NCBI GenBank assembly: GCA_020091685.1 | Contig: CM034599.1 | Coordinates: 8,924,789-8,988,788 of the forward strand | Direction of reading: 5' to 3' | DNA length: 64,000 nt | Origin: Lutjanus erythropterus | Lineage: Eukaryota > Chordata > Actinopteri > Lutjaniformes > Lutjanidae | Part shown: positions 35,521 to 63,710 of the stretch, in pieces | Layout of the letters: each line of letters opens with the position of its first letter | Position numbering within the stretch: position 1 is the stretch's first letter | The notes under the pieces: generated by a model | Seen by the model: the letters and a program-made list of their open reading frames with translations, nothing else | Told to the model about the DNA's origin: nothing | Databases searched by the model: none | Position numbers and translations under genes: made by a program

Positions 35521-36441
35521 GTTACACTTTATTGGACAGTACACTTATAAGATGTAATAAGTCATCAAATTAGATGAAAACTAAACAATTATATGTTTTA
35601 ACATAAGACAGTAACTGACATTAAACAGAATTAGACCCTTATAAGCCTTTATAAGAGGATAATTAGGGACACATTACAACAGAACTGCAAACTAAAGTGT
35701 ATTAAATCACATTATCTGCCTATACACGCTTACAAATAAAGGTACCAAACAGGTTCTACCCAGAACCATTTGCCTCTGAAGTATCCTTTTTTGAAGACGG
35801 GGTTTGTCAAGGGTTTTTTGTAAGACCAAGGGTTCCATTAAGAACTGTTTTCATCCAAAGAACCCTTTTTAGAAGGGCTCTTCACGTATTGTTGAAATTC
35901 TTGAAGAGCTTTTTCATCAATGTTTCGTCAAGGGTTTTTGCTACCATAATAGAAAAAGGTTCTCGGTAGAACCCTGTCAGTGTATTCTCGATAAAACCCT
36001 CGAAGTATGGAAAGGTTCTTGGAAGAATCCCCTGAGTGGGTTCTCGATAAAACCCTTGAAGTATAAAAACGTTCTCAATAGAACCCACTGGGTGGATTCT
36101 TGTTGGCACCTTTAGATGGTTCTGGATAGAACCTCCAGAAAGGGCTCTTGGTGAAACCATTACACCATAGAAGGGTTCTCTGTAGTACCTCTTGTAAGAG
36201 TTGGAAGCTTTCACAGATGGCGCATAACTCTTTACGTTGGATTGTAGGTAGAACTCTCCGAAAGGGTTCCAAGTGCTACGTTTATAAAAGGTTCTGTTGT
36301 AACGTGTGGCAAATTACTCTCCAACAAAATCTAATAAAGTTCTAAGACTGTCTAAAGAAGAACACATTTCTATTTTTTGTCTACTTTAATACAAAGTACA
36401 TCTCGTTATGTCTTATTAGTGTATTGTAAAATAAAGTGAAA
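35521..36441. mobile_element. TIR element split by an inserted second element
   Basis: The outer left arm is gttacactttattggacagt followed by acacttataagatgtaataag (35521-35561). The outer right arm (36403-36441), read in reverse complement, is gtttcactttattttacaat followed by acactaataagacataac. These are matching terminal inverted repeats. Between them, from about 35728, begins a different element rich in gaaccct/aagggttc phrases (see its own entry). The outer element's own sequence resumes before 36403. Confidence 0.75.
35728..36310. mobile_element. inserted 'GGTTCT/AGAACC' element (copy 1)
   Basis: Begins cttacaaataaaggtaccaa. It is composed of many short ggttct/agaacc units in both orientations (aaggttctcggtagaaccct, agggttctctgtagtacctc and others). 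The same architecture and a matching first 15 bases appear at 49009-49572. Its right end is not clear; about 36310 is an estimate. The minus-strand frame with repeated 'REPF' phrases is a product of the internal repeats. Confidence 0.72.
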
Positions 36442-39754: not shown

Positions 39755-39873
39755 GGACCGGCCTTAACGTCAGCGATAACGAGTCCATCCCTGGGAGCCA
39801 CGACGGAGCGAGCGTAACCAACTCGCAGATAGTTGAGCTGAGACGAATCCCCATCGCCGACACGCACCTCTAA
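39755..39873 (+). CDS. adgrv1: adgrv1 last coding exon with PDZ-binding C-terminus
   Basis: Acceptor tgactgttttag|gg. It reads [20 protein letters not shown], continues with [19 protein letters not shown], and ends at a TAA (39871-39873). The final four residues DTHL are the class I PDZ ligand (T-x-hydrophobic at -2/0) through which ADGRV1 binds whirlin, PDZD7 and harmonin in the Usher type 2 complex. This known family role is transferred by the near-identical C-terminus. The whole visible product is 313 residues in one unbroken frame across six exons, so nothing suggests a pseudogene. Confidence 0.97.
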
Positions 39874-40260: not shown

Positions 40261-41295
40261 CTGGCTGTGCCGATTCCATTTTTTCCTCTCATAACCTGTC
40301 AAACAGGCCGTTTACTCCTGGAGGGTGCCTCTGATGGTTATGTAAGCGAGTCACTGGGGGGGGTCAGGGGTCACACCCTCGCTGAGGATGGTTCGTGTGA
40401 ATGATCGCTGCCTTGCAGGAATTTCACAAACTGGTTCTCTGCTCTGAATGAGAGACTGAAAATAAGGAAAATGTAAGAAATATAGAGCAGAGGAGAGTGT
40501 GGAGAACATTCAACGTTGAATTAAATTATCTCTCTAGTCGCGTTTGAACTTATTTCACTTAACAGCATACATTTTTTAAAAGTAGGGGCTCGTCTTTGAT
40601 CTGCTGCGTGAAGAATCGCAGGGGGTTGAAAGTACAAGCAAATATTCTTCTTTTAACTTTGACAGCAGCTTTGAACCTCTTGGAATCCAACGTCTACTTG
40701 ACCCGTGCGCCGACCTTTAACCTGTGTCTTACAGCAGCTCGACTTCTGAACTTGGTGACTGGCTGCACAAGAGGTTGTTACTTTTACTGCCTGAGAAATT
40801 TGCTAGAGAAAAAGAAAAAAAAAGACAGACGCAAGAATCATTCAACTACTATTAAACTGGTTATGAAATGGTCTCACTTTAATACTGATGTAAGCAAGCA
40901 AGTCAACTAACATCAATAGATTTTTAAGTTTTGTGCCCAATTCAAACTCTTGTTTTTTGTTTTGAAAAAGTTTTACCAACTAATAAGTTTTTTGATATAC
41001 TTTTCTTCTATAGACAAACTTGAATTTTAAGTTTTAGACACCCCCCAAAAAATTTGTATTTTAAAAAATTGCATTGAAGTGAGAATGAAAAATGCAATAA
41101 TTGCAACCATTTAAGTTTCAAGCACCCAAATAATCACAAATCAATTTTTTTTTTTTTTTTTGGAGTTTCTAAAACTCAAATATTCAAGTTTGTCTGAAGT
41201 AGAAAAGTACCTTCTTCATTAAAATTCTGCAGGACTGAGAAAGTCATGATGATTATGCATACATACATACACACACACACACATATATTATANAA
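40261..41295. other. intergenic DNA immediately downstream of adgrv1
   Basis: AT-rich sequence with poly-A/T runs (for example 41144-41161) and a short CA run at 41267-41284. It ends at the single ambiguous base (N) at 41293. No gene seen. Confidence 0.6.
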
Positions 41296-41604
41296 TCGGC
41301 ACAATCATATCCTGCTGCTGCAGCGCTCTCATTACATTTCGGCATCATGACCACAATGAACCTGGGAGCATAGCAGTAACAAATTTTACTAAAACTAAAA
41401 CTAAAAGTTTTACACAAAGCATATCGAATAAATCTACATCTCGCTAAAGTTTTAGATATCAAAGACAAATGGAGATTTTGCAACAGTGAACCAGGATCTT
41501 AACGCAATTATTTTACCAGTCTATCCACTCAACTTTAATAAAAGATTATATATATATATATATATATATGTGTATATATATATATATATACGTATATATA
41601 TATG

Positions 41605-41656
<52 letters not shown>

Positions 41657-41965
41657 CATATATATATACGTATATATATATATATATACACATATATATA
41701 TATATATATATATAATCTTTTATTAAAGTTGAGTGGATAGACTGGTAAAATAATTGCGTTAAGATCCTGGTTCACTGTTGCAAAATCTCCATTTGTCTTT
41801 GATATCTAAAACTTTAGCGAGATGTAGATTTATTCGATATGCTTTGTGTAAAACTTTTAGTTTTAGTTTTAGTAAAATTTGTTACTGCTATGCTCCCAGG
41901 TTCATTGTGGTCATGATGCCGAAATGTAATGAGAGCGCTGCAGCAGCAGGATATGATTGTGCCGA
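41296..41965. repeat. perfect 670-bp palindrome with AT-rich core
   Basis: The left arm from 41296 (tcggcacaatcatatcctgc) is the exact reverse complement of the right arm ending 41965 (gcaggatatgattgtgccga). I checked block by block through the AT core, whose symmetry centre lies between 41630 and 41631, and found no mismatch. The core (about 41548-41713) is almost pure TA with symmetric gt/ac/cg interruptions. Identical 84-residue frames on the two strands (41486-41740 and 41521-41775) are a consequence. The only N of the window, at 41293, is 3 bases outside the left edge. Confidence 0.97.
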
Positions 41966-42880
41966 CTGACGATATTTTGACACTAAGGAAGCAGCCTGAA
42001 TGTGTTGTGTCTTTACACACCTCCCTCCCACTGGTTAATGACTTCATTCTCCTTCCTGCAGGCAAATGGGAGTGAAACTATAGAGAGAAGAAGAAGAGGA
42101 AAGAAGAAAGTTTTCTTCTTCTAACACATGAAGAAGTTTATTTTTATTCAGGGAAGTGAATCAGCGCTGTGTGTCTTTGCTCTGAAATATATAAAACTAA
42201 TTGATCCTACTCACCCCATTCTGTCTAGTGCAGGAGTCAGAAACGTGCAGCTCTTTTGGTCCTCGTCAGTGGCCCCCTGTGACTTTGACAAAAAAAAATT
42301 AATTGAAATTAATAATTATTAAACATTTTAATTTTCATTCTAATTTCCTTTATGATTAATGTTGGCAAATGTCACAGCGTACATCTACAGACCAGCACCT
42401 TTTCCTCTAATTTTTTCTGTTGGCTAGTTTTGAGTCTAGAAGGCAGGGGGAAAAAAGACAAATCTCTGAGGAAAATAGAGAACTTAATACTTGTGGCTCC
42501 AGACAATTTTTTGGGGCAGGGGGTAAAAATGTCCCTTTTCTTAGTAAATGTTGCTGACTCCCTACTGGGAGAGACATCGTACCCGGAAATGCAGAACTCT
42601 TCTTTTCCAACATTTTTGTTTTCCTGTCCACTTGTGTTGCCTGTTTTGCCCCTGAGGGCAAAGCAGCAAGCAAACTGTGGGATTTGTCCACAAAAGAGGG
42701 TGGCGAAATTTCTGAAACACCTCTAGCTGTAAAGCAGCTACAAGGAACTTTCATTTAATGTCGATTTTGGAGGCCCATGAGGACAAAAGCAGCAGTGTTA
42801 CTACTGCCATAACCACAAAATATGACATAAAAAATAAAATTATCTAGAGAAAAATTTCCCTCTTGCTTCTTTTTACCTGG
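41966..42880. other. intergenic DNA, no gene seen
   Basis: Only short chance frames. The segment 42240-42730 has fragments reminiscent of dispersed repeats but no ends that I can define. Confidence 0.5.
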
Positions 42881-63379: not shown

Positions 63380-63710
63380 AATGAAACAGTAATGCATAAA
63401 CAGACATAAACGAGACATAACAAGATGAAAACAACATAACAAGACAAAAATAACATAGAAGATGTAACAAGACTAAAATGATGTAATAAAACAAAAATGA
63501 TGGAAGACGGTACAAGATGAAAACAACGTAAGAAGATGAAAAGTACATAAAAGATGTAACTAGACAAAAACAACATAAAAGTCATGACAAGACAAAAATG
63601 AGAGAAGATGACACAAACAAGATAACAAGATGAAAACTACGCGAAAGATGTAATAAGACAAAAATTACATTAAAAGGCATAACAAGACGAAAACAATGTA
63701 ATTTTCACAC
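63380..63710. repeat. degenerate minisatellite, unit about 20-24 bp
   Basis: Repeated variants of acataacaagacaaaaat and agaagatgtaacaagact alternate across about 330 bp with many substitutions and small indels. No frame with meaning on either strand. Confidence 0.85.

Follow-up and report, generated by a model that had tools for sequence, protein, structure and literature searches.

Is the flawless palindrome located downstream of the gene which we take, from its C-terminus, to be adgrv1 a genuine element of this fish genome, or was it written during assembly? It lies within a stretch of 64,000 nucleotides (the window), corresponding to C9:8924789-8988788 of a source assembly of 937.6 Mb in 444 contigs. 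Based on its structure, on sister loci in the same assembly and on a k-mer sufficiency test, we consider the palindrome very probably an assembly artefact and not a real feature, with the right arm probably being the original and the left arm its false inverted copy.

The location downstream of adgrv1 agrees with the original prediction, while the distance of 1 kb given there had to be corrected, the palindrome beginning 1.4 kb downstream of the stop codon (39871-39873). Two segments tried for the identity of adgrv1 gave no Pfam match. Within the window, Pfam analysis of 10 of the 22 open segments returned a single match, below the cut-off, and Rfam detected nothing at gathering score between 38000 and 46000. 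Other repeats of the window comprise overlapping tandem arrays with units of 19, 47 and 94 bases (63415-63693) and 2.6 copies of a 56-base unit (35953-36100).

Structure and borders of the palindrome

Positions 41296 to 41965 form a perfect palindrome of 670 bp, consisting of two 335-bp arms without any spacer and with 335 of 335 pairs matching, exactly as predicted in both coordinates and symmetry. This number of matching pairs is beyond chance. The window holds no second spacer-free perfect palindrome with arms of at least 15 bp. A survey of 20 other stretches of the same genome, six of them chosen (three around a match on C15, see below, and three beside the window) and 14 arbitrary, detected neither a perfect palindrome with arms of at least 15 bp nor an N within 199,999 bases. 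In terms of base composition, the palindrome is heterogeneous: an AT content of 71.6% over the whole length results from 92.9% in the core (GC 7.1%) and 64.5% in the outer arms (GC 35.5%). The core had been described as almost pure TA; it is indeed TA-rich, but 12 of its 168 bases are G or C, and these interruptions are its informative part.

Table 1. Coordinates of the palindrome, its parts and the loci carrying its central 40-mer.
Feature	Position	Strand	Description
CA/TA microsatellite ending at N	41261-41292	+	direct reading
Single N	41293	.	sole non-ACGT letter of the window
Left outer arm	41296-41546	-	exact reverse complement of 41715-41965; outer end 2 bases from N
Interrupted TA core	41547-41714	.	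TRF array; palindrome centre between 41630 and 41631; 168 bp identical to the L025 core
74-base interrupted TA piece	41568-41641	+	exact at 3 places in 937.6 Mb (window locus, L025, C17)
Central 40-bp palindrome	41611-41650	.	TG(TA)8CA with TA on either side; exact at 5 genome places, of which 4 form the midpoint of a long perfect palindrome
Right outer arm	41715-41965	+	unbroken into the right flank, without N
Window locus	41296-41965 (C9)		670-bp perfect palindrome centred on the 40-mer
L025	C9:31207681		616-bp perfect palindrome, 308-bp arms, centred on the 40-mer
L026	C17:25517752		carries the 40-mer; palindromic over 40 bp only, unfolded
L027	C21:17623064		762-bp perfect palindrome centred on the 40-mer; left edge outside TA
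L028	C24:12747612		2708-bp perfect palindrome centred on the 40-mer; left edge outside TA

The left border deserves particular attention. The N had been placed at the edge of the palindrome, which is correct, as it stands two bases outside. The symmetry is broken at 41295 (a) and kept at 41294 (a), next to the N at 41293, and the inverted sequence thus extends almost to the N. We presume the N to be the remnant of a partly filled gap and the CA/TA microsatellite preceding it to be the true left end of the TA tract. That this run could continue directly into the TA core was originally put forward in favor of an artefact. The argument fits, but it does not discriminate, since a template switch back to the same tract leaves the same border. 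Such a switch is the basis of the alternative that the palindrome is a real, very young inverted duplication: a nascent strand would have folded at a TA-tract hairpin during replication or repair, copied 335 bases of the right arm and returned to its template in the same tract, thereby producing the TA-ended left border, with the N as a by-product of DNA that is hard to sequence. Single-strand folding into one hairpin (-382 kcal/mol) agrees with this as well, a value which only restates the perfect symmetry. For reasons given below, we regard this duplication as unlikely.

MITEs and fold-back transposons are inverted repeats around a TA-rich middle, and the palindrome resembles them in this respect. 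A palindromic transposable element with a TA-rich centre could furthermore account for a 115-base piece of the arm matching C15 at 77% identity. A search of the whole genome with the 251-base outer arm returned three matches (counts being lower bounds), namely both copies of the palindrome and this piece on C15, with no other full arm copy reported in 937.6 Mb. The borders of the palindrome, TATANAA and CTGACGA, show no target-site duplication. With dispersed copies and target-site duplication both lacking, this candidate was rejected on copy number and borders and can be regarded as extremely unlikely. The C15 match touches neither arm border, and the orientation of the arm is not inferable from it. 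Searched against the genome, the right flank (41966-42300) matched over its full length at one place, its own. As a separate observation, the last 92 bases of this flank (42209-42300) belong to a dispersed repeat with 39 further matches at 77-93% identity among the 40 of 152 candidates that were scored.

Sister loci and the shared TA core

The five genome places carrying the central 40 bp (Table 1) allow the window locus to be compared with three other folded loci and one unfolded locus. L025 resembles it closely: a single N directly adjoins its palindrome on the left, and it is at this N that the left flank breaks off within a TA tract. No N was present at L027 and L028 within the 3,040 bases examined. 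The cores of the window locus and L025 are identical over 168 bp including all 12 G/C interruptions, and each has 104-106 bp with seven interruptions in common with the C17 locus (C17:25517709), at which the interrupted TA sequence is present once and unfolded. The 74-base piece accounts for five exact matches in total, since two of its three places hold both strands. When 30 TA loci were compared pairwise (435 pairs), the runner-up had six common interruptions in 49 bp, followed by four in 42 bp, a ranking to be read with the reservation that the window locus, L025 and C17 were found via the common 40-mer and their likeness is somewhat inflated thereby. L027 and L028 were picked by the same 40-mer, yet have only 50-52 bp in common with the two folded loci and with each other. 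The point at which the window locus, L025 and C17 diverge lies within uninterrupted TA sequence (runs of 23, 25 and 27 bases). A walker whose overlap does not exceed about 23 bases would be expected to lose its place there and to follow one and the same path irrespective of its origin.

These data weigh against a real duplication in several respects. It leaves unexplained why two unrelated folded loci have a 168-bp core in common and share 104-106 bp with the unfolded C17 sequence, and why the N stands at the left edge of both instead of at the centre. Both events would furthermore have to be very recent, given that the arms show no difference in 335 bp at the window locus and in 308 bp at L025. 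For comparison, PMC13155455 puts the longest perfect arm in human at 140 bp and also warns of misassembly in repeats. For the window locus and L025, an artefact accounts at once for the identity of the arms, the N at the left edge, the TA sequence in the core as well as to the left of the N, and the sharing of this core with an unfolded locus.

An artefact could also have arisen from the chemistry instead of from gap filling, through a fold-back sequencing read, in which a molecule is read forward and then back, being built into the assembly. According to PMC12870357, nanopore and PacBio data contain such reads, and these could suit the N-free L027 and L028. Neither the TA core common to the window locus, L025 and C17 nor the single N at the edge of both loci at which that core is folded is predicted by them. 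We assign this origin a small share, counted within the probability of an artefact.

The N-free palindromes within the same assembly speak in favor of real duplications, as does a further locus, L054 (C1:19869443), found with a 38-mer core. It is a TA-centred palindrome of 738 bp with 369-bp arms and one mismatch, C against T at the 33rd base from the centre, as expected of a slightly older event, and its region (C1:19868412-19870512, covering L064, L054 and L065) is free of N across 2,101 bases. L054 is perhaps the best candidate for a real palindrome. If all of these palindromes were real, interrupted TA tracts in this fish would serve again and again as templates for folding back and duplicating one flank. 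The outcome would be scattered palindromes, perfect and without spacer, with sizes from 0.6 to 2.7 kb, and the one in the window would be too young for differences; we see a slim chance for this scenario.

At L028, the arm presumably encloses exon 1 of a glycerol-3-phosphate dehydrogenase gene, as recognized by eye. The right flank continues with additional exons of this gene, the three pieces tried scoring above the Pfam cut-off for PF01210 and PF07479; the right arm is therefore the original at this locus. In the sequence of L028 together with L036, further exons of this gene occur only to the right of the palindrome, as far as read.

Control TA tracts were used to evaluate how general folding is. 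None of 10 tracts matching the 40-mer with one mismatch was folded, also when allowing mismatches, and perfect TA palindromes of up to 110 bp were present among them. In this and the following comparisons, the control stretches measured 501 or 651 bases, so that a fold centred outside would escape notice. Other palindromic TA cores were folded at one of six places for the 38-mer (L054), none of three for a 42-mer, none of four for a 44-mer and not at the single place of a CA-TG 40-mer; a palindromic TA pattern of different design had no match in the genome. Leaving the window locus aside, folding thus occurred at three of four places with the first 40-mer versus one of 14 with other cores. A non-palindromic control pattern gave 24 matches at 21 places, with close opposite-strand matches only at the window locus and L025, as judged from positions and strands only. 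The rule that every long TA palindrome folds was discarded on the basis of these controls: TA palindromes of up to 156 bp at other places are unfolded, and consequently a TA palindrome alone is not the cause of folding. At one control tract, L047 (C1:25805100-25805750), at least 282 N directly adjoin the TA sequence. Its left side is therefore unjudgeable for folding, and the tract demonstrates that assembly gaps do occur in such sequence.

K-mer sufficiency and a proposed gap-filling route

We analyzed whether unfolded sequence by itself supplies every k-mer needed to write the palindrome, which comprises 647 24-mers at k=23. One right arm with the TA run, combined with the left flank and the C17 locus as donor, left 0 of 647 24-mers missing at k=23. 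At k=25, four were missing for the window palindrome with this donor, and the L025 palindrome had none missing up to k=25. The other donors were insufficient at k=23, with 111 of 647 missing for L029 and 102 of 647 for L027 and L028; 145 of 647 were missing with no donor at all. If the locus owns half of the core itself, one copy reaching 20 bases past the centre suffices at every k tested from 21 to 39. As the k-mers of unfolded sequence suffice, a short-overlap gap filler is able to write the palindrome from a locus with a single arm. The test demonstrates sufficiency, not history. Together with L025, with its folded core, its edge N and its flank stopping in TA, the result obtained with the unfolded C17 donor strengthens the lean toward an artefact already expressed in the original prediction.

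Following the preferred gap-filling explanation, the left arm together with one half of the TA core would be artefactual: the real locus would consist of the left flank, the CA/TA microsatellite and the right arm once, and the assembly would have broken within the microsatellite. A short-overlap gap filler may then have grown the right contig towards the left; its overlap would have been at most about 23 bases for a core borrowed from elsewhere, and up to 39 for a half core native to the locus. Entering pure TA, the walker would have lost its place and taken the TA path also present, unfolded, at C17:25517709. The 40-bp palindrome at the centre is presumably the turning point: at this self-complementary stretch, the way back along its own arm would be as valid as the way forward, and the right arm would have been rewritten in inverted form until the estimated gap was consumed, leaving one N. 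Geometry, core sharing, the single N at the two loci with this 168-bp core folded and the sufficiency of the k-mers are observed; the gap-filling program, the overlap length and the order of events are what we infer.

When an extension exhausts the estimated gap length, some gap fillers leave a single N behind. Gaps of one base are on record in PMC9575681, for a draft human data set. Three properties marking an artefact coincide at the window locus: the copy is identical to its source, it ends at a gap, and its k-mers are present in unfolded sequence. A copy ending at an N is found at the window locus and L025, and not at L027, L028 and L054. Gap filling does not obviously cover the N-free L027 and L028 or L054 with its mismatch, and these three may be fold-back reads, another outcome of gap filling, or real.

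Consequences and comparison with known systems

If the palindrome is an artefact, unique DNA next to a gap has probably been duplicated falsely, in inverted form, at no fewer than two TA tracts of the assembly, and anyone surveying the genome for duplications, fragile sites or inverted repeats would score such palindromes as real. The palindrome in the window should therefore not be taken as a real fragile site until confirmed by long reads. The L028 palindrome, which may be an artefact or real, repeats the first exon of glycerol-3-phosphate dehydrogenase in inverted form. If, in turn, the N-free sister palindromes are real, TA tracts would have given rise to fold-back duplications repeatedly in the genome of a vertebrate.

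Among real palindromes, the known PATRRs (PATRR11, PATRR22 and others) invite comparison. In PMC4940405, they are described as several hundred bp long, nearly perfect, spacer-free and more than 90% AT. The palindrome had been called PATRR-like, which is appropriate with respect to its size of several hundred bp, its symmetry, its AT-rich centre and the lack of a spacer. In contrast to the nearly perfect PATRRs, it is perfect, and its AT content of 71.6% stays below their 90%, a value exceeded in the core and not in the outer arms. We therefore do not classify it as a PATRR.

Among artefacts, it resembles the fold-back products addressed by Breakinator (PMC12870357) and Pacasus (PMC6218980), which are likewise perfect or nearly perfect, spacer-free inverted copies of a flank. 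Those products arise in the read or by amplification, whereas the palindrome in the window turns in a TA path common to other loci and its copy stops at a lone N, an indication of gap filling. The accessible parts of the literature on fold-back reads and gap fillers yielded no published description of TA-centred fold-backs at gaps. If the artefact explanation is right, the palindrome is a fold-back artefact placed at a gap, and as such represents a kind of error known in outline.
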